Below are positions 6,184-64,000 of a stretch of 64,000 nt of DNA, piece by piece (positions within the stretch are counted from its first letter, which is position 1; every line of letters begins with the position of its first letter). Source of the stretch: Candidatus Lindowbacteria bacterium RIFCSPLOWO2_12_FULL_62_27 (GTDB taxonomy: Bacteria; Lindowbacteria; 2-12-FULL-62-27); NCBI GenBank assembly GCA_001784175.1, contig MFPR01000028.1, forward strand, positions 7,606 through 71,605. The letters are read 5' to 3'. A program made the translations under genes and the position numbers. The notes beneath the pieces were generated by a model. It was not told the DNA's origin and searched no databases. It was given only the letters and a program-made list of their open reading frames with translations.

Positions 6184-8196
6184 GTGGCTGACAACAATCA
6201 TCTTGATCAGTTGTGCATCAACACCATCCGGACGCTTTCCATGGACGCGGTCCAGAAGGCCAATTCGGGACACCCGGGCACGCCGATGGCGCTGGCGCCG
6301 GTGGCTCACGTTTTGTATGACCGGTATCTCCGGTTCAACCCCAAAAATCCGAACTGGCCCAACCGCGACCGATTCATTCTTTCGGCGGGCCACGCGTCGA
6401 TGCTGCTCTACAGCACCCTGCACATCAACGGATTTGATCTGCCGCTGAACGAACTCAAAAATTTCCGCCAATGGAACAGCAAGGCCCCCGGGCACCCCGA
6501 GTACGGGATGACGCCGGGCGTCGAAACGACCACGGGACCGCTTGGGCAGGGTGTGGCGAACTCGGTGGGATTCGCGATGGCCCAGAAGTGGCTCGCGGCC
6601 CATTTCAACCGGCCGGGTCACGACATCGTCGATTACCGGATTTTCGCCGTCTGCGGCGACGGATGCATGATGGAGGGCGTGTCGGGTGAGGCCGCGTCGA
6701 TTGCGGGACACTTGGGACTCGACAATCTTGTTTGGATTTATGACAACAACCACATCACGATCGAGGGAAACACAGCGCTCGCGTTCACCGAGGACGTCGC
6801 GGCCCGCTTCATGGCCTACCACTGGAACGTCCAGCGCGTCGGCGACGCCAACGACTTGGACCTTTTGACGAACGCGTTCGGCACGGCGCTCAAGGAAACC
6901 GGTCGGCCCACGCTGATTATCGTCGACAGCCACATCGCCTACGGCGCGCCGAACAAGCAGGACACCTCCGGCGCGCACGGCGAGCCCCTGGGCGAAGAGG
7001 AGATTAAACTGACCAAACAGCGATATGGATGGCCGGCCGACAAGCAGTTCTGGGTGCCGGACGAGGTCGCGGCCCGGATGAATACGATGGCGGACCGCGG
7101 CCAGAAACTGGAATCGGAGTGGAACCAAAAATTCGAGGCGTATCGGAAGGCCCATCCGGACCTCGCGGAGGAATTCCTCCGGATGCAGAAGGGCGACCTG
7201 CCGCCCGATTGGGACAAGGACCTGCCGACCTATCCGGCGGACCCGAAGGGCGTGGCGGGCCGGGACTCGTCGAGCAAGACGCTGGCGGCGATCGCCAAGC
7301 GCGTTCCGTATCTGGTGGGCGGCTCGGCGGACCTGACGCCGTCGACGAAGACGCGGATCCCGGACGGCGGGGATTTTCAGAAGGGATCCTACGCCGGCCG
7401 CAACCTGCATTTCGGAATCCGCGAGCACGGCATGGGTTCGATCCTCAACGGCATGGCGCTGTCGAAACTCCGGGTCTACGGCTCGGGCTTTTTGATTTTC
7501 TCGGATTACTGCCGGCCCACCCTGCGGCTGGCGGGGCTCATGGAGATTCCGGTTCTGCACATCTTCACGCACGATTCGATCGGTGTCGGCGAGGATGGCC
7601 CCACCCACCAGCCGATCGAACATCTCGTGTCGCTTCGCGCGATCCCGCACCTTGTGGTGATCCGCCCCTGCGATGCCAATGAAACCGTGGAGGCATGGCG
7701 GTGGATCATGAAAAACAGAACCCATCCCGTCGCGCTCATCCTAAGCCGCCAGGCTCTGCCCACCCTCGATCGGACGAAATTTGCGCCGGCCTCCGGGCTC
7801 CACAAAGGCGCCTACATCCTCGCGGACGGTGGCGGCGCGCCGCAGGTGATCCTGATGTCGACCGGATCCGAAGTCCAGTTCTGCATGGAGGCGCACGAGA
7901 AACTGAAGGCGGAAGGCATCCGGTCGCGCGTGGTGAGTTTTCCGTCCTACGAGATTTTCGAGATGCAGTCCGAGGATTACCGCAACGAAGTTTTGCCGCC
8001 GGCGTGCCGCAAGCGCGTCGCGGTCGAGGCCGCGTCCACGCTCGGCTGGCGCCGCTATGTCGGCATCTACACCGACGGCGCCGTGATCGGCCGCAAGGAA
8101 TTCGGCGCCTCGGCGCCGCTCAAGGAACTGCTCAAACAGTTCGGGTTCACCGCCGACCACGTCGCGGCGGAGGCGAAGGCGCTCCTGAAGGGCTGA
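6184..8196 (+). CDS. tkt: Transketolase (bacterial/plant type)
   Basis: 670 residues, the normal length. GTG start with a strong AGGAGG at 6172-6177. The thiamine-diphosphate site is clear: [18 protein letters not shown] with the following NNHITIEG, and the pyrimidine-binding half with [14 protein letters not shown] and [16 protein letters not shown]. The substrate-binding His near the N-terminus is in [17 protein letters not shown]. It moves two-carbon units in the non-oxidative pentose phosphate pathway. It follows the M48 protease by 36 bases. A second, clearly different transketolase lies at 15141-17036, so this organism has two non-identical enzymes within 7 kb. Confidence 0.96.
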
Positions 8197-8259: not shown

Positions 8260-8463
8260 ATGCACCAGTTCACGGGCAAAGTGATCATGATCCTGATCAT
8301 TATTTCCTTTTTCCTGGGCGCTCTCGTCGTGACGTTCAACGACGAGTACACCCTGGAGAAAAACATTCATTCGAACCGGCATTACTACCCGTCCGTCAAG
8401 GTGGGGGAGGAGGCGCGCAAGGCCGGCGACGCTGAGGAGGCCGATCGTGATCAAGGATATTAA
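8260..8463 (+). CDS. Small single-span membrane protein upstream of the nuclease
   Basis: 67 residues. One hydrophobic segment (VIMILIIISFFLGALVV, residues 8-24) is followed by an acidic, then mixed-charge tail ending EEADRDQGY. No family is recognised. Its last 17 bases overlap the start of the next gene in another frame, and the AGGAGG site used by that gene lies inside this one, which suggests translational coupling. The codon pattern and position between tkt and the nuclease make it likely real, but no homology supports it. It could tether or regulate the nuclease/ComEC pair that follows; this is speculation from context. Confidence 0.5.
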   Translation: MHQFTGKVIMILIIISFFLGALVVTFNDEYTLEKNIHSNRHYYPSVKVGEEARKAGDAEEADRDQGY

Positions 8464-11400
8464 TTTCAAATCCCTGGCGGTAAAACTATGGAAGGATTTT
8501 CTGTACTTTCTCTCCAACCCCATCCCCCTCAGCTTTTCCAAGATGAACACCTATCAGACGTGCGCGTACAAGTACAAACTGATTTATCTCGACCGGCAGC
8601 CCGGCAAGCCCAGCCCGTATCTGGCCTACGGCACGGTGATGCACGACACGCTGTTCGAGTTTGAGAGCATCCCGCGGGGCGTGAAGCGCGACTACGCGGA
8701 CCTCGAGCGGATCTTCCAAAAAAACTGGAACCTCCACTTCGAGTCCTACCGCCGAAAATGGGGCAAAAGCCTGTATGACCTGATCGCCGCCGAGAAAAAC
8801 ACGCCGGCCGAGGAGCTTGAAAAAGCGGCCTATGACACCGCCGTCATCATGCTGAAAAACTACTGGCGCGACGAGTCCAAAAATCCGAACAAGGTCCGCT
8901 ACGTTGAGAAATGGCTCTTCGGCGAGCTGGGCCACTACCACGTGACGGGCCGGCTCGACCGGCTGGACCAGCGGCCGGACGGGCATTACGAGATCATCGA
9001 CTACAAGACCGGCCAGCGCATCTACGACGCCGACACCCTCAAGGACGCATCCCGCGGATACGGCCTTCAGGCCGGTGTCTATTACGAAATGTGCCGGTCG
9101 GCATGGCGCGACCGGGTCGACCGGTTCATTTTCAAATACCTGCAAAAACGGCAGACGCTGATGGAGCATCTGGCTTCGGAGTGGATCGACACTGTGGTGG
9201 GCGCCGCGCGCGGTGCGCTGAGCAGTGCGCCGGAGTCGGCCATTCCCGGCGGCGCGGCGGTGGATCCGGCCGCGCTGACCGCGACGGCACTCCACGCGGT
9301 GCGGGACAAACTGGAGGAAAAACTTCTGAAAAAAGTTCTGGCCGAGTGCGAAGAGGAACGGGTCCGGAAGGAAGTTCGGAAGATCCGTCTGGAGGAGGAG
9401 CAGGAGATCCTGAACGAGCTGGACGAGGCGGCGCGCCCGACGGCGCGGGTGTTTCTGAAGGCCCTGAACAAGGCGCTGGAGGACCGGATCACCGCCGAGG
9501 TCGATCGGTCGGTCGAGAAACTCGACGATCCCGAAGGCGTCCGCGGCGTGATCCGTGAGGCGCTCAAGGCGCTGGACGAGGGCAGGGTCGGCGACTGCGT
9601 GTCGGCGTGTGTGAAAAACGTCGAAACGCAGTTCAGGTCTCTGGCGGGCGCCGTCGCATGGCCGAATCTTGCGACACCGGAACGCGAGCGGATCGTGAAC
9701 GAGATCATCGAGACGCTGTACCGGCGCGAAATCAAGGACACGTGCGCCGCGTATCTTCAGGCGATGACGCCGGAGAAACTGGCGCGGAGTGCGGAGGCGG
9801 CTCTTTCGGCCGCGCCGGACATCCGCCCCGACCAGCGGCCGGCGCTGATCAGGCACGTGCTCGATACCCTGCGGGCGTCGTTTGCCCGCAGTCTGGACGC
9901 GTACACGCCGGACGAGATCGCCCGCGTTATCGCCGAGTCGACACCGCCGAATTTTCTGACGAGCGAGCACGTCGAGCGCACGAACCGCCTGCTGGACCGG
10001 CTTGTGACCAGGACCGCCTTGCGGGAGGACAAGGCCGGGAGGAAACTCCCGGACGACGCAATCTCGGCCGCGCGCCGCAACATCATGCTGGCGCCGCTGG
10101 CCGACGTCATCAAACACATCGTCCGCGCCTGCCTCGACGGCGTGATCGCGGACCTGCGGGCGGAGAAATCCAGCGAGCTGACGGCCGCACTTCGCGGACA
10201 GTACCTCGGCGCGCTCCGGGCGCTGGCCGGCCCGCTCTTCGTTCAAACGGCGGCGCGAAAGGTCGCGGTCGCGTACGGCCGTCAGGCGTTTCATGAGATT
10301 TATTATCAAACGGCGGTCGTCCCGGTCGTCGATCACGTCACCCGCCTCTTCGAGCGGCCGGACGTGATGAAAATTTACGCGCAGATTGAGACGGGCCTGA
10401 CCGAGCGCGACCGGAAGGCAAAAGCGCAGCGGCTGATCGAGAAGCTCAACTGGACGGATGCGGCGGCTCTGGTGGAGGAGAGTGTACGGCCCGTGCTCAC
10501 GGCCTGGGAGGGAGCGCTCCAGGGGATCGCGGCCGGCGCGGTCGAAGAGGCGGTGGCCGCGTCGTTCTCGCCGGCGGACCTCGAGGCCGTCCTGGACCGC
10601 GCCGCCGAACTTTTTGAAAATCGCCTCGAACGCGTCTGCACGCTCGACGTCGAAGTCCCCTACGCGCCGGAAACGCGCGAGAACGTGATCCGCGCGATCG
10701 AACAGGTGCAGGACGGCATCCGGCGGAACGAATTCTCGACGGCCCGCGGCGCGCTCTGCGGCTGGTGCGAGTATCAGTCCGGCTGTCCGGCCTGGTGCCG
10801 GTACCGGGACATCTGCAAGGACACCTGCAAGGACGAGTACCACTGCAAGCGCTGGTTCGACGAGAAGACCGGCCGGCTGGTGGAGGGCCGGCCGCCGGAC
10901 ATGACGCACGAGGAGTATCTGCGGCGGATCGAAGCGAAGTACGAAGTCACCGACCGGTCGCTCTTCCGGCTGTCGTTCTCCAAGATGAATTCCTATGAGT
11001 TGTGCCCGATGAACTACCGCAAACTCTATCTGGACCATGTGTCGCCGAAACCCAAGTCGTTTTTCTCCATCGGCCTTTCATTTCACCAGACCATGGAGGA
11101 CCTCTACGCCTACCACGGCCCGCACCAACAGCCGTCGCTGAAGATGCTGCTGGACCTGTTCAGGAAAAAATGGATTTCGGCCGGATACCGCAGCCGCGAG
11201 GAGGAGGATTTCAATTTCCGCCGCGGGCTGCGGATGTGCGAGGACTATTACGAGGCCTACATCGACGGCGCCTACAAGCCGGCGGGCGCCGCCGAGGATT
11301 ACTTCGAGTTCAAACTCGGCCGCACGCTCCTCTGCGGATTCATCGACCGCGTCGACATGAACGAGGATGGCAGCATCTCGATCATCGACTATAAGACAAA

Positions 11401-11866
11401 CCCGAAACTCTACACGCAGGAGGAACTCGACGAGGACCAGCAGATGACGATCTACTACCTGGCCGCGCGCGAGGGCAAGCTCGAGAGCGTCAAGTACAAG
11501 CCGGTCGAGGTCAAACAATTTATTTTTCAGTTCGTCAATTTCTGCAAGGACCTCGTCGCCACGCGCGATGCGTCCTATCTCGGGGCCCTGCAGGATCGTG
11601 TGCGGCAGTTCACCGAGGAGATGGAGTGGCGGCAAAAGGTCTACAAGGATTCGAAATTCGATCCCCGTGCCGGCATGCTCCTGTTCCCGCCCCAGGACAA
11701 CAAATACTGTCAGTCCTGCGACCACCACCATCTCTGCCCGCTCAAGACCGACATGACGCTGACCGGCGAGGTCCAGAAAAAGGGGACGCAGTTTGAGGAT
11801 GGCGTGGACGCCAAGGAGTTGGCGGAAGAGTCGACGGATCGTGTCGCGACGTACGATGTTGCCTGA
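8447..11866 (+). CDS. Tandem RecB/AddB-type PD-(D/E)XK nuclease with two iron-sulfur cysteine sets
   Basis: 1139 residues from a GTG with GAGGAGG upstream. Two complete RecB-type nuclease modules occupy the two ends. Module 1: Cys39 (in KMNTYQTCAYK), His66 (GTVMHDTL), Asp171 (GRLDRLD), Asp185-Tyr-Lys187 (IIDYKTG) and cysteines 771, 774, 780. Module 2: Cys853 (KMNSYELCPMN), His880 (GLSFHQTM), Asp967 (GFIDRVD), Asp981-Tyr-Lys983 (IIDYKTN) and cysteines 1088, 1091, 1097. Each module thus has one early Cys and a late C-x2-C-x5-C, the arrangement that holds a 4Fe-4S cluster in AddB-type nucleases. Between residues ~240 and ~740 is a long helical insert in module 1 without a recognised domain; no helicase motifs are present. 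An extra Cys-rich stretch (784-803) follows the first cluster. Stop is 6 bases before the comEC-like gene. Confidence 0.88.
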   Translation: MIKDINFKSLAVKLWKDFLYFLSNPIPLSFSKMNTYQTCAYKYKLIYLDRQPGKPSPYLAYGTVMHDTLFEFESIPRGVKRDYADLERIFQKNWNLHFESYRRKWGKSLYDLIAAEKNTPAEELEKAAYDTAVIMLKNYWRDESKNPNKVRYVEKWLFGELGHYHVTGRLDRLDQRPDGHYEIIDYKTGQRIYDADTLKDASRGYGLQAGVYYEMCRSAWRDRVDRFIFKYLQKRQTLMEHLASEWIDTVVGAARGALSSAPESAIPGGAAVDPAALTATALHAVRDKLEEKLLKKVLAECEEERVRKEVRKIRLEEEQEILNELDEAARPTARVFLKALNKALEDRITAEVDRSVEKLDDPEGVRGVIREALKALDEGRVGDCVSACVKNVETQFRSLAGAVAWPNLATPERERIVNEIIETLYRREIKDTCAAYLQAMTPEKLARSAEAALSAAPDIRPDQRPALIRHVLDTLRASFARSLDAYTPDEIARVIAESTPPNFLTSEHVERTNRLLDRLVTRTALREDKAGRKLPDDAISAARRNIMLAPLADVIKHIVRACLDGVIADLRAEKSSELTAALRGQYLGALRALAGPLFVQTAARKVAVAYGRQAFHEIYYQTAVVPVVDHVTRLFERPDVMKIYAQIETGLTERDRKAKAQRLIEKLNWTDAAALVEESVRPVLTAWEGALQGIAAGAVEEAVAASFSPADLEAVLDRAAELFENRLERVCTLDVEVPYAPETRENVIRAIEQVQDGIRRNEFSTARGALCGWCEYQSGCPAWCRYRDICKDTCKDEYHCKRWFDEKTGRLVEGRPPDMTHEEYLRRIEAKYEVTDRSLFRLSFSKMNSYELCPMNYRKLYLDHVSPKPKSFFSIGLSFHQTMEDLYAYHGPHQQPSLKMLLDLFRKKWISAGYRSREEEDFNFRRGLRMCEDYYEAYIDGAYKPAGAAEDYFEFKLGRTLLCGFIDRVDMNEDGSISIIDYKTNPKLYTQEELDEDQQMTIYYLAAREGKLESVKYKPVEVKQFIFQFVNFCKDLVATRDASYLGALQDRVRQFTEEMEWRQKVYKDSKFDPRAGMLLFPPQDNKYCQSCDHHHLCPLKTDMTLTGEVQKKGTQFEDGVDAKELAEESTDRVATYDVA

Positions 11867-11872
11867 CCTCTG

Positions 11873-14800
11873 ATGGCCGCGTTCAGTTCCGCTGCGGTCC
11901 CCGCCGCGCCGGCCGCGCGGCCGCACCGGTTCGACACCTATCTCAAGTCCGTTTTCATCAATATGGTTCGCTATCTCGAAGTCTGCGCATTGCCGTATCT
12001 GGCGGGCATCGCGTCCGGGGTCGGTTTTGACCTGAAAATCCCGCCGGCCGTCTGGGCGGCGCTGTCGACGCTCGGGGTATGGGGAACGGTCCTGGTCCTC
12101 TATGGACCGATCATCCTTCTTCACGCGTTTTTCATCCAGTGGATGAAAACGCGCCACCCGGAACAAAGTCCGATCGTGTTTCTGGAGGACGGCGTGACGG
12201 AACACCGGTGTACGGTCTTCCTGGCCGTCCTCGCGGCCTGCGTATCGATCGTGTTCGGCGTGATCAACTACAATTTCGCGGTCGACATCTCGCATCCCCG
12301 GCACATTTCGCGGCACGTCGTGAAACCCTGGGAAACCAACCCGGTGAGCCTGGACGGCAAGATCGTCCGGGAGCCGGATTTCCGCGAGCATGCGGTGTGG
12401 CTGTATCTTCAGCCTCGCATGCTCGACGGCCGCGAACCGATCGAAAAGGGCCTCGTGCTCGTCCAGGTGGCCCGGACCGTCGAAGGGTTCGAGGAATTCG
12501 AGTACGGCCAGCACATCCAGGTGAAGGGCAATCTCGTCGAGCCGGAAGCCGCCACCAATCCCGAGACGTTTGATTACAAGCGCTGGCTCAACAACCGGAA
12601 CGTCTTCGGCCTCATCCGCATCAACAAGCCGGAAAACGTCCGGTACCTGGGCGTCCGCGAATCCAACCCCGTCTTTGATATCTCGCTCTGGGTCAAGAAA
12701 AAATTCCTCGGCATCATGAAACAGACCCTGCCCTACCCGCACTCGGCCTTTCAGGGCGGGATTATCTACGGCCTGAAAACCGGCCTCGATCCGGTAATCC
12801 ATTTCGAATTCAAGTGGGCCGGCATGGCCTGGGTCCTCGTCGTCGCCGGCGCGCACCTCCTCATGGTCTACCTCACGCTGAAAATGATATTGGAAAGCAT
12901 CCGGCCGAACCCGAAAATCGCCTTCACGGTGCTGTTTGTGCTCCTGATCATGTTCCTGATCCTGACCGGCATCAACCCGCCGACCGTCCGGGCCTTCATC
13001 ATGATCATGCTCTACGAATTCACCAAGGTATTCCTGGGCCAGGACATCCGGGCGGCCGTGCGGAGCGCCATCGGGATCGCGGCGTTTTTGCTGCTGTCCT
13101 CGCACGTCTTTCCATATTTTTCTCCGCTCCTCATCTTTGAGCCGACCGTCACGCTCTCCTTCGGCGCGGTGCTGTCGCTCGTGTATCTGTCCCGGCCGAT
13201 CGAACACATGCTCCGGCGATACTGCTACGGCATGACCAGCGTGGTCGTGCTCGGGGGTGTGACGGCGTCGCTGGTGTATCTCAGCCTCAAGCGCCCCGTG
13301 ACGCTCTCGCTCATGTTCTGGCAGCAGATCCCCATCTGGGTCGTCACGCTCATCTGCGCCGTGATCACCGCGCGCATCAACGACAGGTACCGGGACCGGT
13401 ATCAGCTCGATCAAATTTATCTCGGATACAACGACCCGGCCCGATTTCACGGGTGGCTGCGCTGGATCCATCCGACCTTCCTGACGTACAACAACCTTCC
13501 CCGCTGGGTTCTCGGCTTCGTCGGCGCGCAGATCGCCATCCAGTTCGGCATGGTCATGCCGCTGTCGAGCTGGTATTTCCAGCGCTCGCCGGTAGGCGGG
13601 CTGCTCGCCAACATCGTCGCGTTTCCGGCGCTTGGCGTGATCATCCAGGTGGGCCTCGTGGCGGTCCTCATCGGCATGATTCCCGTGATCGGCCTGCCGC
13701 TCGCGTTCATTCTGAACGCCGCCGATTATCTGGGCATCGAGCTTCTCATGTTCCTCGCGCGGGTCAGCAAGGAATTTTTCCCGTACCCGATGGCGATGAA
13801 ACCGACGGGGTCACAGCTCCTCCTTTATTACGGAATCCTTTTTGGATTCGTGTTGTTCGACAAGATTTTTTATTCGTTCGAAAAACATGGGTATCTCACG
13901 CTGCGGGAGGTTCTCGAGCAAAAATTCCTGTTCACCAAACGGCCGTTCTACGCGCGGATGATCCGGGTGCTGAGCACGCCCAAACGCGAATGGCTCTTCG
14001 TCGGCGTCGTGGCCGTTTTGCTCGCCGGCGTCGGATGTTACATGGCCCAGGGCCGGAAGCTGGACCATCTCAAGATCATCGTGATGGAACTCGACGAAGG
14101 CGCCGGCACGGTGATCATGACGCCGGGCGGGACGCGGTTCCTCGTCGACGGCGGCGGCGTCTCATGGAACCCGCGGTTCAACGTCGGCGAACGCACCGTC
14201 GCGCAGGTCCTCTTGGGACAGCAGATCGAGCACATCGACGCGGTCTTCATCACTTCGTTCAACTCCACCAACATCGGCGGCCTTCCGTTCATCCTCGAAA
14301 ATTTTACGGTGGGCCGCGTGTTCGTTCCGTACGATCCCGCGATCCTCACGTCGGACGAGGAATTCACCAGCCACAACTACATGGAACTGGCGGCGAAGGT
14401 CGACCGGGAGGGTGACCGCGCCAAGATTTCGATGATGGTCCGGCGCGGGCGGGTGAGCACGAAGCAGGTGGTGGAATCGATCGAGGCGATCCGAAAGGCT
14501 GTCCGGAGCCGGCAGATTCCCGTGTCGCGTCTGTCGGAGGGCGCGCAGGTCCTCAAGGGCAGCGACGTCCAGATCGATGTCCTGAACCCCGTCGCGGACA
14601 AATCCGCGATGGCGGGCCGCGGCCTCGTCAACAATGGGTTGGTCCTTCGGATCACCTACGGCGGAAACTCGGTCCTGTTGCCGGGCGACCTGGACGCCGA
14701 CGGCGAGGCGGAACTGATCGCACGCGCGAAAAATTTGAAATCGAGATTTGTCCTCGTGCCGGCGCACGGCGACGAGGAATCAAGCGGTGATGCGTTTCTG

Positions 14801-15166
14801 AAAGCCGTGCAACCGGAGTACGCCGCGGTTCAGTACCGCCGGCCTTTCCGGCGCCCGACGGACCGCGCGCGGCTTGATCGCCTGATCCGGCGTCTCGAAT
14901 CCGCCGGCATCAAGGTGGACGTCCGGATGGAGGACCTGGATGCCTTTGAGCAGGTGGTCCGGCTCTATGAGGCGGCGGGCGCCAAAGTCCTGCGGACGGA
15001 TCTGAATGGCGCCATCCTCATCGACGCCTGGGCCGACGGCCGCTTCTCGGTATCGCCGATGCTCAAAACCGCGCAGAAGGAAATCGCGGCCGAGACGGAA
15101 GCCGACGAGTCGGACACCGACGTCCAGGACCGGTCGATGCTCAAGAGCGAAGGGACGGGGTTGTAG
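11873..15166 (+). CDS. ComEC/Rec2-family DNA channel protein with degenerate metallo-beta-lactamase domain
   Basis: 1097 residues. Order: N-terminal membrane segments (about 20-130), a soluble OB-like/DUF4131 domain (about 150-270, YGQHIQVKGNL), the polytopic Competence domain (GMAWVLVVAGAHLLMVYL; LTGINPPTVRAFIM; TVTLSFGAVLSLVY) and a C-terminal metallo-beta-lactamase (MBL) fold from ~725. In ComEC that fold normally carries a His-x-[His/Asp]-x-Asp-His metal site; here the strand reads ITSFNSTNIGG (residues 793-803), so every ligand at 795-800 is replaced. The later GDLDADGEAELI aspartate remains, while HHG has become AHG. The family moves one DNA strand across the inner membrane in natural transformation. 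Its 3' end overlaps the convergent transketolase by 26 bases. Confidence 0.85.
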   Translation: MAAFSSAAVPAAPAARPHRFDTYLKSVFINMVRYLEVCALPYLAGIASGVGFDLKIPPAVWAALSTLGVWGTVLVLYGPIILLHAFFIQWMKTRHPEQSPIVFLEDGVTEHRCTVFLAVLAACVSIVFGVINYNFAVDISHPRHISRHVVKPWETNPVSLDGKIVREPDFREHAVWLYLQPRMLDGREPIEKGLVLVQVARTVEGFEEFEYGQHIQVKGNLVEPEAATNPETFDYKRWLNNRNVFGLIRINKPENVRYLGVRESNPVFDISLWVKKKFLGIMKQTLPYPHSAFQGGIIYGLKTGLDPVIHFEFKWAGMAWVLVVAGAHLLMVYLTLKMILESIRPNPKIAFTVLFVLLIMFLILTGINPPTVRAFIMIMLYEFTKVFLGQDIRAAVRSAIGIAAFLLLSSHVFPYFSPLLIFEPTVTLSFGAVLSLVYLSRPIEHMLRRYCYGMTSVVVLGGVTASLVYLSLKRPVTLSLMFWQQIPIWVVTLICAVITARINDRYRDRYQLDQIYLGYNDPARFHGWLRWIHPTFLTYNNLPRWVLGFVGAQIAIQFGMVMPLSSWYFQRSPVGGLLANIVAFPALGVIIQVGLVAVLIGMIPVIGLPLAFILNAADYLGIELLMFLARVSKEFFPYPMAMKPTGSQLLLYYGILFGFVLFDKIFYSFEKHGYLTLREVLEQKFLFTKRPFYARMIRVLSTPKREWLFVGVVAVLLAGVGCYMAQGRKLDHLKIIVMELDEGAGTVIMTPGGTRFLVDGGGVSWNPRFNVGERTVAQVLLGQQIEHIDAVFITSFNSTNIGGLPFILENFTVGRVFVPYDPAILTSDEEFTSHNYMELAAKVDREGDRAKISMMVRRGRVSTKQVVESIEAIRKAVRSRQIPVSRLSEGAQVLKGSDVQIDVLNPVADKSAMAGRGLVNNGLVLRITYGGNSVLLPGDLDADGEAELIARAKNLKSRFVLVPAHGDEESSGDAFLKAVQPEYAAVQYRRPFRRPTDRARLDRLIRRLESAGIKVDVRMEDLDAFEQVVRLYEAAGAKVLRTDLNGAILIDAWADGRFSVSPMLKTAQKEIAAETEADESDTDVQDRSMLKSEGTGL

Positions 15167-17036
15167 CTTTTTCTCTCTGCCGGACCGCCTGCATGATCGC
15201 GCGTTTTGAAATGTCCTCATAATCTAGCAGTTCCTCGGGTTTGCCGCTCTTCGGAAGTTTCCTCACGGCCAGTTTCGTGACGCGCACGGGTGTGTCCGCA
15301 AGCGCGCTCAGCACGGCCTCGCCCAGGCCGCCCTCCGCGAAGTGGTCCTCGACGGTGACGATGTGTCCGGTGTCGGCCGCGGCTTTTCTCAGAGTCTGGG
15401 CGTCGATGGGTTTGATGCTGTACAGATCGATGACGCGTATGGGGGTGCCGTCGCGCCGAAGCTCTTCGGCGGCGGCGAGCGCCTCGTGCAGCGTGATGCC
15501 CGCCGCAACCACCGTGGCCGCGTCCCGGTCGCTCTGCCGTAAAACCTTGCACCCGCCGATGGGAAACTCGTCCTGCGGGCCGTAGAGGAGGGGCGTTTCC
15601 TTGCGCGTCGTTCGGAGATACACCATCCCGACATGACGCGCCGCCTCCTCCACGAGTCTGGCTGCCGACCATGCGTCGGCCGGATAGAGAACGACACTGC
15701 CGAGGATCGCGCGGAACATCGCGATTTCCTCCAGCCCCATCTGGGACGGGCCGTCCTCGCCGATGGAAACGCCGGCGTGTGATCCGACGAATTTGATGTT
15801 CGCACGCGAATACTGGCTCATCCGGATCTGATCGTACGCGCGCGTCAGAAAGGCGGCAAAGGTCGAAACAAACGGGATTTTGCCCCGGCGTGAGAGGCCC
15901 AGCGCAACGCCGGCCATGTTCTGCTCTGCGATGTACATTTCGAAAAACCGGTCCGGATGGGCCTGCGCAAAGATTTCGGCGTAGGTGGAATTGCTTGTTT
16001 CCGCGTCGAGCACGACGATGTTCGGATATTTTTTGAAGGCCGTCACCAGCGCCTGCCCGTAGGCTTTCCGCGTCGGCGTCGGCTTGTCAAACGCCAGCGG
16101 CGCCGCGCGCTCCACGGCCGGTTTCCGCGCGCCGGGGGGAATTTTGTACGGCAACGGTTTGGCCGGCGCCGCCGTCAAAGACTGATCGACGGGCCCGAGT
16201 TCCTTCAGGACGCGATCGAGTTCCTGCGGCGTCACGGGCTTGCCGTGCCAGTTGTCCTTGTCGGCCAGATACCGCGTTCCGGCGCCTTTCAACGTTTTCG
16301 CCACGATCATGACGGGCTTGCCCCGTACCGCGATCGCCTGCCGGTATGCCGCGAGGATTTTCGGAAGCGAGTGCCCGTCGACCGACAGCGTGTGCCATCC
16401 GAAGGCCGATACGCGCCGAATGTATGCTTGGATGTCGTGACCATACATTGTCTGGCCGCGCTGCCCCAGCCGGTTGACATCGAGGATTCCGACGAGATTG
16501 TCGAGCTTGTAATGCGCAGCGATCTGAATGGCTTCCCATTGGGATCCTTCCGCCATCTCGCTGTCGCCGAGAAGCACGTATGTCCGGTAGCCGACGCGGT
16601 CGAGGTACTTCGCATTGAGCGCCATCCCGACTCCGATGGAAAGTCCCTGCCCGAGCGACCCGGTGGCGGCCTCGGTGTAGGGAAAGGCCATGGCCGGATG
16701 GCCTTCGAGCGGGCTGTTCAATTTGCGCAGCGTCAGAAGTTCTGATGGAGTGAGCTTGCCGGCCACCGAAAAGAGCGCATAGAAAAGCGGCGATGCGTGA
16801 CCTTTGGAGAAGATCAGCCGGTCGTTGTTGGGATGCTCCGGCCGGTCGAGGTCGAAGCGGAATATCCCGCCGAACATCAGCGCCGTCATGAGGTCCGTCG
16901 CCGACATCGATGAGGTCGGATGGCCGGACCCGGCCCGCGTGGTGGACATGAGAATGTGATGCCGGATCAGCCGTGCGATCCCGGCCAGCCGGCCGTCTTT
17001 GAGAGGTATGGATTTTTTTCGTCGCACTCTCACCAT
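15141..17036 (-). CDS. Transketolase (animal-type, second copy)
   Basis: About 631 residues from ATG 17036; a GTG at 17051 is possible and neither start has a good ribosome site. The sequence follows animal-type transketolases rather than the bacterial type: TRAGSGHPTSSMSATDLM, GDSEMAEGSQWEAIQIAAHY, DVNRLGQRGQTM, NWHGKPV, FEMYIAEQNMAGVALGLS, GSHAGVSIGEDGPSQMGLEE and VEDHFAEGGLGEAV. All three domains (TPP, Pyr, C-terminal) are present in a single chain. It is the last gene of a (-) run behind cbiO (42-base gap). It probably catalyses the same reaction as Tkt1 or serves a special sugar pathway. Three-prime end overlaps comEC by 26 bases. Confidence 0.93.
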   Translation of the reverse strand: MVRVRRKKSIPLKDGRLAGIARLIRHHILMSTTRAGSGHPTSSMSATDLMTALMFGGIFRFDLDRPEHPNNDRLIFSKGHASPLFYALFSVAGKLTPSELLTLRKLNSPLEGHPAMAFPYTEAATGSLGQGLSIGVGMALNAKYLDRVGYRTYVLLGDSEMAEGSQWEAIQIAAHYKLDNLVGILDVNRLGQRGQTMYGHDIQAYIRRVSAFGWHTLSVDGHSLPKILAAYRQAIAVRGKPVMIVAKTLKGAGTRYLADKDNWHGKPVTPQELDRVLKELGPVDQSLTAAPAKPLPYKIPPGARKPAVERAAPLAFDKPTPTRKAYGQALVTAFKKYPNIVVLDAETSNSTYAEIFAQAHPDRFFEMYIAEQNMAGVALGLSRRGKIPFVSTFAAFLTRAYDQIRMSQYSRANIKFVGSHAGVSIGEDGPSQMGLEEIAMFRAILGSVVLYPADAWSAARLVEEAARHVGMVYLRTTRKETPLLYGPQDEFPIGGCKVLRQSDRDAATVVAAGITLHEALAAAEELRRDGTPIRVIDLYSIKPIDAQTLRKAAADTGHIVTVEDHFAEGGLGEAVLSALADTPVRVTKLAVRKLPKSGKPEELLDYEDISKRAIMQAVRQREKATTPSLRS

Positions 17037-17093
17037 TTGATTATGATACACCGATTCGTTCGAAAGACAAGTTTGGTTTTAAGTTTTTTGAAT

Positions 17094-55690: not shown

Positions 55691-55712
55691 GCATTGATTA
55701 TTGAGCCTTGAC
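55676..55712 (+). repeat. ATTGA-type short tandem repeats
   Basis: After the Sir2 coding end, ATTGAACATTGAGCATTGATTATTGAGCC repeats the ATTGA unit four times with two- or three-base spacers. It may be a slipped-strand or insertion scar, or a regulator site before the immunity-like gene. Confidence 0.5.
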
Positions 55713-55743
55713 GAATCTTTGTGACGACACAGAGGAAACATTG

Positions 55744-56178
55744 ATGCAAACGAAAAACGCCAAAGAGATTGACAAACGCGACCAACGGACGCTGGCCCTC
55801 TGGGCCGCCGATTGCGCCGAGCGAGTGCTTCCGTATTTCGAGGACAAACACCCGAACGACAACCGACCTCGGAATGCCATCGCAACAGTCCGCGCGTGGG
55901 CGCGCGGCGAGATTCCGTTCTCCATGAAGTTGATCCGAACCGCGTCGCTCAACTCCCACGCCGCCGCGCGGGCAGCCGTTGATCCCGCCGCCATCGCCGC
56001 CGCCCGCGCCGCCGGGCAGGCTGTCGCGACCGCACACGTCGCAGGTCACGCCCGCGCCGCAGCCGCTTATGCGATCAAGGCGCTCGGCTCCGCATCCGCA
56101 AATGAGCGCATCTGGCAACGACGCCGTTTGCCACGGCGTCTTCGGGCGTTCGCGCTTCCCACAGTCGCATCCTCATAA
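55744..56178 (+). CDS. Imm5-like putative immunity protein
   Basis: 144 residues from ATG 55744 with GAGGA upstream; a TTG at 55708 is rejected. The pattern RTLALWAADCAERVLPYFE, PRNAIATVRAWARGEI and the Ala-rich GQAVATAHVAGHARAAAAYA is that of putative immunity proteins (Imm5-like), which usually protect against polymorphic toxins. No toxin gene is seen within the window, so the gene is an orphan. Three-prime end overlaps the convergent TfoX gene by 6 bases. Confidence 0.78.
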   Translation: MQTKNAKEIDKRDQRTLALWAADCAERVLPYFEDKHPNDNRPRNAIATVRAWARGEIPFSMKLIRTASLNSHAAARAAVDPAAIAAARAAGQAVATAHVAGHARAAAAYAIKALGSASANERIWQRRRLPRRLRAFALPTVASS

Positions 56179-56502
56179 TTCCTGACACCGTGCCGCTCTC
56201 TCCGCCCAGTCCGCAAGCTCCCGCGGATCCTCCAGCACGTCTGCCGGAACTTCGTAATACGATTTGAGCGGCTGCTTTTTGCTCGGACGAAACGGTAACA
56301 TCTTGCGCTCGCGATAAGGCGCTGTCGATTCCGGGGCGGCCGGATCAGTTTTGAAATAGAGCCTGTTTTTGTGAAGGATCCCGAAGAACACCTCGCCCCG
56401 ATACAGTCCATATCCGCCGAACATCGCACACGCCTCGACCGGACCGAATGCCGCCAACTGATCCAGAACGAAATCTCTGAACTTCTCCTTTGACGCATTC
56501 AT
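56173..56502 (-). CDS. TfoX N-domain protein
   Basis: 109 residues. FRDFVLDQLAAFGPVEACAMFGGYGLYRGEVFFGILHKNRLYFKTD in its parts (MFGGYGLY; FFGILHKNRLYFK) is the TfoX_N signature; the second half (LKSYYEVPADVLEDPRELADWAERA) is the usual family end. The C-terminal TfoX domain is absent, as in many short homologues. TfoX/Sxy links to competence in gamma-proteobacteria; here the role is unknown. ATGA overlap with the beta-grasp gene. Confidence 0.88.
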   Translation of the reverse strand: MNASKEKFRDFVLDQLAAFGPVEACAMFGGYGLYRGEVFFGILHKNRLYFKTDPAAPESTAPYRERKMLPFRPSKKQPLKSYYEVPADVLEDPRELADWAERAARCQEL

Positions 56503-60628: not shown

Positions 60629-61348
60629 TTACAATTCGATCCTTTCCAATTTTTCCTTGCGTTTCCGCCAGTCGGGCATGATCCTCGACAATAAATCATA
60701 AAACCGGATGGTGTGCCGGGGGACCTTCAGGTGACAACACTCGTGGATGATCACATAGTCGATGCACTGCAAAGTGGTCTTGATCAATTCCGGATTTAGA
60801 TAGATATGCCGCCCATTCGTACAGCTTCCCCACCGCCTCGGCATTTTCCGGATGGAGAGCGGCGAATCAGTGATGCCGTATTTTCGCGCGCGCTCGTGAC
60901 AAACGGCCAGTCTCTCCGGAAACTTGGTTCCGGCGCGTTCGCGGTACCAGCGATCCAGCAGGAGGCGGGTCCGTGTTCTGTCTCCACTGTTTTTTGTAAA
61001 GACTTTCAAATATTTTCCGTCCAGTTTTACCCTCTCATCGGCGGCCTTCACGATTTTCAGCCTGTACTGCCTGCCCAAATACCGGTGACTTTCGCCGCTG
61101 ACATACTGTTTCGGCGGCATTTTGGGCAAAAACGTCCGGAAAAAATCCTGCTGGTGGACAACCCAGCGGGCTTTCGACCGGACAATTTCTCGGACTCTTC
61201 GAATATTCGCAACTCTCGGGGCAACCACTGTGACGGACAAATTCGGGTGCACGCTGATTTGCAGTGTTCGGCGGTCCCGGCGGACCAATTCATAGGGAAT
61301 TTGCCTTCGGCCATATTCGATCACATGAACGGTGTCGGGTTTACCCAT
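60629..61348 (-). CDS. YgjP-like M48/DUF45 metallopeptidase
   Basis: 239 residues. Zinc site His-Glu-x-x-His in YVIIHECCHLKVPRHTIRFYDLL, and the preceding MPRRWGSCTNGRHIYLNPELIKT is typical of DUF45/YgjP. The N-terminal half (IEYGRRQIPYELVRRDRRTLQISVHPNLSVTVVAP) is the usual beta-rich extension. This family is a common companion of type I restriction hsdR genes, as here: its start overlaps the hsdR stop by 8 bases. Function in restriction is not known. Confidence 0.9.
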   Translation of the reverse strand: MGKPDTVHVIEYGRRQIPYELVRRDRRTLQISVHPNLSVTVVAPRVANIRRVREIVRSKARWVVHQQDFFRTFLPKMPPKQYVSGESHRYLGRQYRLKIVKAADERVKLDGKYLKVFTKNSGDRTRTRLLLDRWYRERAGTKFPERLAVCHERARKYGITDSPLSIRKMPRRWGSCTNGRHIYLNPELIKTTLQCIDYVIIHECCHLKVPRHTIRFYDLLSRIMPDWRKRKEKLERIEL

Positions 61349-64000
61349 CCGCGTACCGCGCTCTGGCCACGTCCAGCGCCCGCTCCATGATCGAATCTAT
61401 CGCGTCATAATCCAAGTCGAGTTTGTATTTTTCATTGGTTTCAACAAGGACGTCCTCGATTTCGTTTCTCATTTTATTTTTAACGTCCTCGTTGTCCGGC
61501 CACGCGACGATTTTGTTGGCGCGTACAATCTCGTCAATCTTTATCCCGAGGTCCGCCGAGACATCCCTGGCGTTGAATCCGTCACCACCGCGCGATTCCA
61601 GGGCCTCATGGACAACACCATAGAAAGCCCGGGCCACGCCCTCGTTTCGGATCTTGGCGGGCAACTCATCGCCGGTTCGGTTGCGCACCGATTCCATGAT
61701 CTCCTGCGCGCGGTTCAGATACTCCGCGTCCGAAACGCGTTTGTTCCGGTAGTCTCGGATCGTCTCCTCAAGCAGTTTTGAGAATTTCTTGTAAAATGCC
61801 GGATCTTCATCCATCTTTGCCGTGATGGTGCGCCTGGTCTGGCTGGCAATCATGTCCGCCTTGGCGGCCTTCCCTACGATGCTTTCCACTTCGGCCTGAA
61901 ACTTCTCCTTGTCAAAAATGTCCACCAGCGGCGTGATCTGAACGATCTCGTCCGATGTGACGTACGTATCCAGCAGTTTCTTGATCCGCGCTTCGTATTC
62001 CTTGAAATCGATCGACTCGGCATACCGCCGGCGGGCGGACGACCGGAGATTCATAAAGAATTTCAAATCTGTTTTGTATTTCTTGATTTTCTCGGCCGGG
62101 GTGTCGGTCAGGAATCTGGCGGTCGAAAGGGCGATTTCCAGCGTTCGGGCGAACGTGGACAGGCGGTCATAATATCGGTGCCGGAGCGGTTCATCCGCCA
62201 AATGCCGCTCATACGCCTCTTCGTCGTATTTGTTTTTGATTCCATTGAAAATATCCCATAGGTCGGAATGTTTCTGTGGAAGCGTTTTGACCTCGTCCGT
62301 CACGTTACACAGAGCCATTTCAATTTCGTCCTGCTGAAACTCGGACAACGCGCTGTATTTGGTCAACGCCTGATCCAGCTCTCCCAGAATACCGTAATAA
62401 TCGACGATGTATCCGAAGTCCTTTCCTTCGTACAGGCGGTTGACGCGCGCGATGGCCTGAAGCAGCGAATGGTCCGTCATTTTCCGGGTCAGATAGAGAA
62501 CGACATTCCGGGGCGCGTCAAAGCCGGTCAGGAGTTTGTCGACGACGATGATGATTTCCGGCCGGTCTCCGTTTTTGAAAGCGTTGATGAGTTGATCCTG
62601 ATAATCCTTTTCCGAACCGTATTTATCCATCATCTTTTTCCAGAATTTTTGGACTTCCGCTTTGGGTTCATCGTAGACGTCCTCATAGCCCTCGCGGGCA
62701 TCCGGGCCGGAGATCAGCACCTCGGAACTGACAAGGCCGAATTCGTCCAGATATTCCTTGTATTTCAAAGCCGCCAGTTTGGACGGCGCCGCAAGCTGTG
62801 CTTTGAATCCCGTTCCCTGCCAGGTCTTGGCGAAGTGGGCGCTGATGTCGTATGCGACCTGTTTGATTTTCTGCTCGGTTCTGTTGAGTTGGTCCGCCGT
62901 GCTGAACTTTTTCTTGAGGTCTTTGGTCTGCTCGTCCGTCAGCCCCTCCGACACCCGCTGAAACCAGCGGTCGATGGATTCCCGCGCTACATCCTGTTCC
63001 GCCAGCCGGCCCTCGTAAAGCCGAGGCACGACCGATTTGTCCCGCACCGCCTGGTCGATCGTGTAGGTATCGATCAATCCGCCGAATTTCTGCGCCGTGT
63101 TTTTCTCTTTTTTCATGAGCGGAGTGCCGGTAAAGCCGATGTAGCACGCGTTGGGAAACACCTGCTGCATTTGCGCGTGGGAAATCCCGTACTGACTGCG
63201 GTGGCTTTCGTCGACCAGGATAAACACGTCGCCTGACTCATTCTTGACGGAGCGTTGTTTGACCGCCGCCTGAAATTTGTCGATGACGGTTGTGATGACG
63301 GCGTCTTTGGGCGTGGTGACCAGATCGATCAGATGCTGGCCGGTACGGGCTTTGACCGGATCTTTTCCGCACTGGTGAAACGTTCTATAAATCTGGTCGT
63401 CCAGATCGATGCGGTCGGTGACCAGCACAATGCGGGGATTGGATATGGACGGCTCAAGCGCCAGCGCTTTGGCCAGCATCACCATGGTGAGAGATTTGCC
63501 GCTTCCCTGGGTGTGCCAGATCACCCCGCCCGTCCGGCGGCCTGTATCTCCGACCTTTGCGACGCGCTCGATTGTTTTTTTCACGGCAAAGTATTGCTGG
63601 TAACGCGCGACTTTTTTCTCGCCCGCGTCAAAGACGACGAATTGGTATGCCAGTTCCAAAAGCCTCCGCGGACGGCATAGGCAGTAAATGGCCTTGTCCT
63701 GTTCGGTCAGTTCGCGGCCGCCGGCCTGTTCCAGAGCGTCAAAATAGTCGCGCACGTAGGAAAAGCGGTCTGAAAAGAGGCGCTGTTTCTGGTCTCCACG
63801 GAGGGGCTTGTTCACCAGCCGGAGAAGTTCCGCTTCGTCCAACCCGGCTTCCCGCCAGACCGACCAGAATTTGGCGGCCGTTCCCGCCGTTGCGTATTTC
63901 GCTTCGTTTTTGGCGGCGGCCATCACAAGTTGGGAGTAAATAAAAAGTTTGGGAATTTCGCGGTCGCGCTGATTTCGAATCTGCTGGGATACAGCCTGTT
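61341..64000 (-). CDS. hsdR: Type I restriction enzyme R subunit HsdR (5' part outside the window)
   Basis: Frame open to the right edge: before the GTG-ATG at 63926 the codons read RDREIPKLFIYSQLV, a normal HsdR continuation, so the true start lies beyond 64000. About 885 residues are visible. Helicase motifs: TQGSGKSLTMVMLAKAL (Walker A), FILVDESHRSQYG (motif II), GFTGTPLMKK (III) and LTGFDAPRNVVLYLTRKMTDHSLLQAIARVNRLYEG (V-VI). The N-terminal endonuclease core is cut off. HsdR translocates DNA and cleaves it away from the target; HsdM and HsdS, if present, are right of the window. Confidence 0.95.
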   Translation of the reverse strand, partial: QAVSQQIRNQRDREIPKLFIYSQLVMAAAKNEAKYATAGTAAKFWSVWREAGLDEAELLRLVNKPLRGDQKQRLFSDRFSYVRDYFDALEQAGGRELTEQDKAIYCLCRPRRLLELAYQFVVFDAGEKKVARYQQYFAVKKTIERVAKVGDTGRRTGGVIWHTQGSGKSLTMVMLAKALALEPSISNPRIVLVTDRIDLDDQIYRTFHQCGKDPVKARTGQHLIDLVTTPKDAVITTVIDKFQAAVKQRSVKNESGDVFILVDESHRSQYGISHAQMQQVFPNACYIGFTGTPLMKKEKNTAQKFGGLIDTYTIDQAVRDKSVVPRLYEGRLAEQDVARESIDRWFQRVSEGLTDEQTKDLKKKFSTADQLNRTEQKIKQVAYDISAHFAKTWQGTGFKAQLAAPSKLAALKYKEYLDEFGLVSSEVLISGPDAREGYEDVYDEPKAEVQKFWKKMMDKYGSEKDYQDQLINAFKNGDRPEIIIVVDKLLTGFDAPRNVVLYLTRKMTDHSLLQAIARVNRLYEGKDFGYIVDYYGILGELDQALTKYSALSEFQQDEIEMALCNVTDEVKTLPQKHSDLWDIFNGIKNKYDEEAYERHLADEPLRHRYYDRLSTFARTLEIALSTARFLTDTPAEKIKKYKTDLKFFMNLRSSARRRYAESIDFKEYEARIKKLLDTYVTSDEIVQITPLVDIFDKEKFQAEVESIVGKAAKADMIASQTRRTITAKMDEDPAFYKKFSKLLEETIRDYRNKRVSDAEYLNRAQEIMESVRNRTGDELPAKIRNEGVARAFYGVVHEALESRGGDGFNARDVSADLGIKIDEIVRANKIVAWPDNEDVKNKMRNEIEDVLVETNEKYKLDLDYDAIDSIMERALDVARARYADG

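Follow-up and report, generated by a model that had tools for sequence, protein, structure and literature searches.

Organization of the locus

Within the window, by which we mean the whole 64,000-nucleotide stretch of DNA that was analysed, positions 8260-15166 hold three co-directional genes on the forward strand, encoding a small membrane protein, a tandem nuclease (RecB2), and a ComEC-like channel protein with a dead MBL domain (Table 1). The original prediction of a three-gene cassette was right, also in its coordinates: the RecB2 gene overlaps the small open reading frame by 17 bases and is separated from comEC by a gap of 6 bases. RecB2 starts at a GTG codon, upstream of which lies a good Shine-Dalgarno sequence, GAGGAGG. 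Two transketolase-family genes (6184-8196 and 15141-17051) flank the cassette, the second of which is convergent with comEC and shares 26 bases with its end. Elsewhere in the window are an Imm5-like putative immunity protein (55708-56178) adjoining a SIR2 gene, a short protein on the reverse strand (56173-56502) that looks like the TfoX-type gene product mentioned with the original prediction and is not diagnostic of competence, and a type I restriction enzyme R subunit, also on the reverse strand (61341-63998), that is cut by the window edge.

Table 1. Features of the three-gene cassette, in window coordinates
Feature	Position	Strand	Details
Small single-pass membrane protein, 67 aa	8260..8463	+	Motif N..YYP.V, C-terminal GY; homologues adjoin dead-MBL ComEC genes
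RecB2, tandem PD-(D/E)XK / 4-Cys Fe-S nuclease, 1139 aa	8447..11866	+	No TM segment or signal peptide
RecB2 N-terminal basic amphipathic helix, candidate membrane-binding segment	8447..8530	+	muH 0.52, H 0.79, net charge +1
RecB2 nuclease half 1: first Cys, H, D..DYK	8531..9013	+	
Helical insertion within nuclease half 1, ~495 aa	9164..10651	+	Low-confidence prediction
Fe-S cysteines CGWCEYQSGC closing half 1	10757..10786	+	
RecB2 nuclease half 2: first Cys, H, D..DYK, CQSCDHHHLC	10973..11737	+	
ComEC-like channel protein, dead-MBL clade, 1097 aa	11873..15166	+	
DUF4131 (OB-fold) domain	12083..12637	+	E 3.6e-19
Degenerate MBL domain	14069..15058	+	Predicted fold resembles ComEC MBL crystal structure 9ic4, E 1.8e-17
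Dead motif II, SFNSTN in place of HxHxDH	14255..14272	+	

Our genome sample contained two other genomes of the source's family, its phylum being otherwise unrepresented. Genome G001 (locus L069) has a conserved counterpart of the window cassette, with amino acid identities of 65%, 62%, and 61% across the three genes. For the two large genes, comparison of the two loci gave dN/dS values of ~0.24 and 0.29; for the small gene, dN was 0.26 and dS was saturated. Purifying selection acts on all three genes, and each has homologues, which ruled out a sequencing artefact or a decayed gene. The conservation at L069, together with related cassettes in other families, confirmed that the cassette is more than a chance arrangement and is not a one-off.

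The ComEC-like protein lacks the usual MBL metal ligands

The ComEC of the window resembles ComEC/Rec2 proteins of the B. subtilis and Moorella type in having OB-fold (DUF4131), Competence, and MBL domains in the same order. The Competence domain (PF03772) was recognized with an E value of 3.7e-25, and the Pfam MBL match was weak (E = 0.0017, under the cut-off). In contrast to ComEC/Rec2, all the usual motif-II metal ligands are gone, His, His, Asp, and His being replaced by Ser, Asn, Thr, and Asn, and the first His of motif V is also lost. An intact catalytic motif (HxHxDH or HxDxDH) is a feature of many ComEC/Rec2 family members but not of every one. At the level of sequence, the protein is thus shown to keep the OB-fold and channel domains alongside an MBL domain without the usual catalytic metal ligands. 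This MBL domain is still constrained, with a dN/dS of 0.40 against 0.25 for the rest of the protein. The score against the NCBIfam equivalog model TIGR00361 was 108.9 bits, under the cut-off of 190.05. Furthermore, a channel motif that reads HVLAVSGLHV in relatives is altered to WVLVVAGAHL, and for this reason the window ComEC may no longer conduct DNA.

RecB2 combines two predicted Fe-S nuclease units

RecB2 matches the Pfam family PDDEXK_1 in several stretches (E = 9.6e-52). In each of its two units, an SxSK motif precedes the first cysteine, and a conserved His, D..DYK, and a CxxC-x5-C cluster are present, so that D..DYK and the four cysteines (C...CxxC-x5-C) that characterize AddB/Cas4-type nucleases, with a predicted Fe-S cluster, are kept in both halves. 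At the level of sequence, RecB2 thus has two complete, intact Cas4/AddB-type Fe-S PD-(D/E)XK nuclease sites. The insertion within the first half is without counterpart in the paralogue described below and in relatives from other families, and it evolves faster than the two nuclease units (dN/dS 0.42 versus 0.15 and 0.12).

The nearest folds to RecB2 are AdnA, AddB, and an Argonaute-associated Cas4. Like the AddB, AdnA, and Cas4 Fe-S nucleases, RecB2 has a PD-(D/E)XK core and a four-cysteine Fe-S signature; unlike them, it has two complete units per chain, has no helicase domain, and is encoded with ComEC. Its score against the AddB equivalog TIGR02786 was 41.6 bits, below the curated cut-off of 486.5. 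No cas1 or cas2 gene lies beside RecB2, its neighbours being ComEC and the transketolases, and in PADLOC it matched generic Cas4-type models only, with no match for ComEC or the small protein. A CRISPR Cas4 or a known defence system was rejected in the absence of supporting neighbours or specific models. Ozemobacter relatives (L077:7580-11560 and L079:1894-5856) encode proteins of ~1320 aa that seem to contain five consecutive PD-(D/E)XK units, some of which have altered motifs; the genes adjoin membrane and secreted-protein genes and are not near comEC.

No signal peptide or transmembrane segment was found in the eight nucleases tested, and RecB2 is therefore predicted to be cytosolic. ComEC-linked nucleases mostly start with a basic amphipathic helix, which is rare elsewhere in these proteins; in RecB2, structure prediction places a helix at residues 7-22. 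This is suggestive of attachment to the inner face of the membrane, and no more than suggestive, as the highest-scoring segment of each protein was the one chosen.

The small membrane protein accompanies dead ComEC genes

The 67-aa protein has one strongly predicted transmembrane segment and matches no Pfam family. Despite this, homologues with N..YYP or a close variant recur beside dead-clade ComEC genes, namely in the source genome (G000; copies A and B), G001, G002, G020, G079, G121, G135, G070, and G210. In the window and in G001, the small protein is one gene away from the dead ComEC.

Further ComEC-like genes in the source genome

The source genome contains four ComEC-like genes. At contig C33 (L066), a paralogous cassette, copy B, is arranged as tandem nuclease (577 codons), small TM protein, and dead ComEC. 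Because the window copy and copy B lie apart from each other within the dead clade, a recent origin of the window cassette by duplication of copy B is not supported. At C26 (L067), the genes after a dead ComEC encode, in order, a double HhH ComEA-like protein, a membrane-anchored stand-alone MBL whose site is intact, and a short HhH protein. The fourth gene, on C2, lies just 3' of a ComEA-like HhH/SLBB gene; like the window cassette, this ComEA-ComEC operon encodes a Competence domain, but its ComEC lacks the MBL domain altogether and has no neighbouring RecB2. The genome also encodes DprA and 12 T2SSE-family matches, 11 of them over the cut-off. The earlier statement that the window holds no pilus genes thus stands for the window and does not extend to the genome, where T2SSE-family ATPases are present.

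Gene order and content vary among relatives

Conserved operons were found for the window type (with L069), for the paralogue (L066 with L071, the latter in G002), and at L195, L191, L190, L193, and L194. In G079 (L195), a single run holds the small protein, a dead ComEC, an HhH protein, an intact MBL, and the tandem nuclease. In G233 (L191), the dead ComEC comes after the nuclease, and an intact MBL lies further on. The run in G214, G343, and G074 includes a dead ComEC, a helicase of the UvrD type, a degenerate MBL, and the tandem nuclease, after which come HAMP, SLBB, and a ComEC that lacks the MBL; contig ends interrupt the dead ComEC of G343, where SLBB was not called as a gene. An Elusimicrobia locus (L076) has the tandem nuclease, an MBL, HAMP, SLBB, and a ComEC without MBL. 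One shared gene order was rejected because order and content vary, with small-RecB2-ComEC, RecB2-small-ComEC, and ComEC-HhH-MBL with or without RecB2 all occurring. The partner genes, which comprise ComEA-like HhH and SLBB proteins, UvrD helicases, and intact MBLs, fit DNA uptake.

A separate membrane-anchored MBL with intact residues lies beside the nuclease in G079, G233, and an Elusimicrobia locus (L078). The MBL at L076 has Asp at the second motif-II ligand and may be active, since this form (HxDxDH) occurs in active ComEC MBLs (PMC12455585). The stand-alone MBL beside the dead ComEC is itself degenerate at L073:9269-10318, L242:2013-3086, L190:4226-5230, L193:2775-3782, and L194:11138-12145, so that no intact MBL is seen in these operons.

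RecB2 is linked to dead ComEC across genomes

Profiles of the nuclease and of the dead ComEC were searched over 386 genomes, 260 families being sampled. The full tandem nuclease was found in 16 genomes, and 14 of these also encode a dead-clade ComEC; 2 have RecB2 only, 5 have a dead ComEC only (G020, G060, G067, G070, and G210), and 365 have neither (Fisher P = 9e-20 by genome and 9e-12 by family, uncorrected for phylogeny). Since just two or three candidates were scored per genome, absences in other genomes are soft; the two RecB2-only genomes, G108 and G241, stayed exceptions after a renewed search in which every candidate was scored. Of the 17 nuclease copies, nine share a gene run with a dead ComEC (P ~6e-13 under a rough chance model), and none was seen to adjoin a ComEC whose MBL site is intact. 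The linkage test put forward with the original prediction therefore favours a link, which also holds in 8 of 9 families.

The dead ComECs form one clade (support 100/98) that is spread over 12 of the sampled families. The nuclease and ComEC trees broadly agree: copy B groups with G214, G074, and G343 in both, and G079 pairs with G349 in both, with weak support in the ComEC tree. A complete motif II was found in 0 of 23 dead-clade members compared with 15 of the 20 next-best ComEC homologues, which served as controls. Of the remaining controls, two have HPHYNH and three (G069, G275, and G139) lost the site independently, so loss of the MBL site is not unique to the clade; the controls with independent loss, outside the clade, are at L253, L254, and L260. 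Within the clade, site loss is independent of nuclease possession, because the site is dead in all 23 members and five genomes are nuclease-free.

A divergent DNA-import machine as the favoured explanation

Collectively, RecB2 goes with dead-MBL ComEC and never lies beside an intact one, which supports the part of the original prediction that proposed an undescribed import or processing machine. We consider it slightly more likely than not that the three genes represent one version of a conserved cassette for ComEC-type DNA import and encode a divergent import machine. The fuller proposal, which we hold more tentatively as close to an even prospect, is an undescribed class of machine, spread over several little-studied lineages and comprising a dead ComEC channel, a small dedicated membrane subunit, often a separate anchored MBL, and a double Fe-S nuclease, docked to the membrane, for processing the incoming strand in the cytosol. 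Conserved operons, the co-occurrence and tree agreement of RecB2 and dead ComEC, uptake-type partner genes, the predicted topology, the presence of DprA and pilus ATPases, purifying selection, and the AdnA/AddB/Cas4 folds all argue for the import-cassette reading. Against it count the 8 of 17 RecB2 copies that are not adjacent to ComEC, the five dead-ComEC genomes without RecB2, the altered channel motif of the window ComEC, and the presence in the source genome of other PDDEXK nucleases and an apparent AddAB pair (G000:C4).

In such an import machine, the dead MBL may be kept to guide DNA at the mouth of the channel, a role already suggested for S. pneumoniae ComEC, the outer nuclease having presumably become a separate protein or been lost. 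Outside the membrane, a separate anchored MBL, where present, or another enzyme would remove one strand; in the source genome, the anchored MBL for this step would be the one encoded at another locus. RecB2 would dock on the inner membrane face through its amphipathic N-terminus, perhaps with help from the small protein, and would trim or degrade the single strand entering the cytosol, for recombination, nutrition, or foreign-DNA disposal. Compared with ComEC/Rec2, systems with a dead ComEC differ in that the MBL is often a separate protein, an extra nuclease and a small TM gene are present, and several divergent ComEC copies occur per genome.

That RecB2 serves repair or recombination in general, and is encoded in a competence operon by happenstance, is unlikely. 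Its nearest relatives, AddB, AdnA, and Cas4, would suit such a role, as would the UvrD helicase found beside it in f72 genomes and near it in G243, and the five-unit Ozemobacter version away from comEC. However, RecB2 is almost confined to dead-ComEC genomes, with about half of its copies in a ComEC gene run, and the source genome seems to have AddAB elsewhere.

The original prediction also offered a simple possibility, that the RecB-type protein replaces the lost strand-degrading activity of ComEC. In this reading, RecB2 would degrade the non-transforming strand in place of the dead MBL, much as EndA does in S. pneumoniae. There, a ComEC with a probably inactive MBL works with a separate nuclease (PMC8579336, PMC12455585), as the cassette might, and the window and copy B both pair a dead ComEC with an intact nuclease and have no MBL gene in the cassette. 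Simple replacement is only partly supported, because five dead-ComEC genomes are nuclease-free and several genomes keep an intact anchored MBL, which in G079, G233, and L078 coexists with RecB2. Topology is a further difficulty, since the ComEC MBL and EndA act outside the membrane, EndA being membrane-bound on its outer face, whereas RecB2 is predicted to be a soluble, cytosolic double Fe-S PD-(D/E)XK protein with no signal peptide. We therefore regard direct replacement as quite unlikely. That the cassette destroys or harvests foreign DNA for defence or nutrition and does not serve transformation is very unlikely: two nuclease sites behind an import channel and a closest solved fold that includes Argonaute-associated Cas4 proteins would fit, but neither ComEC nor the small protein matches a defence family model, RecB2 matches only generic ones, and the neighbouring HhH, SLBB, and MBL genes are of competence type.

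Implications for DNA uptake

Efficient transformation requires the MBL domain of ComEC, which acts as a Mn-dependent nuclease (PMC8579336, PMC12455585). Nearly half of known ComEC proteins are without this characterised nuclease domain, and how the second strand is removed in species with such proteins has been described as open (PMC8579336). A search of open-access journal papers found none combining ComEC with RecB and Cas4. The dead-ComEC clade offers specific candidates for second-strand removal, namely a split-off anchored MBL and a tandem nuclease across the membrane. It also includes genomes with four ComEC-like genes, compared with the single ComEC, or fragment of one, encoded by 96% of genomes in a survey (PMC6299819). 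A group of little-known bacteria apparently carries an undescribed kind of DNA-import gene cassette.
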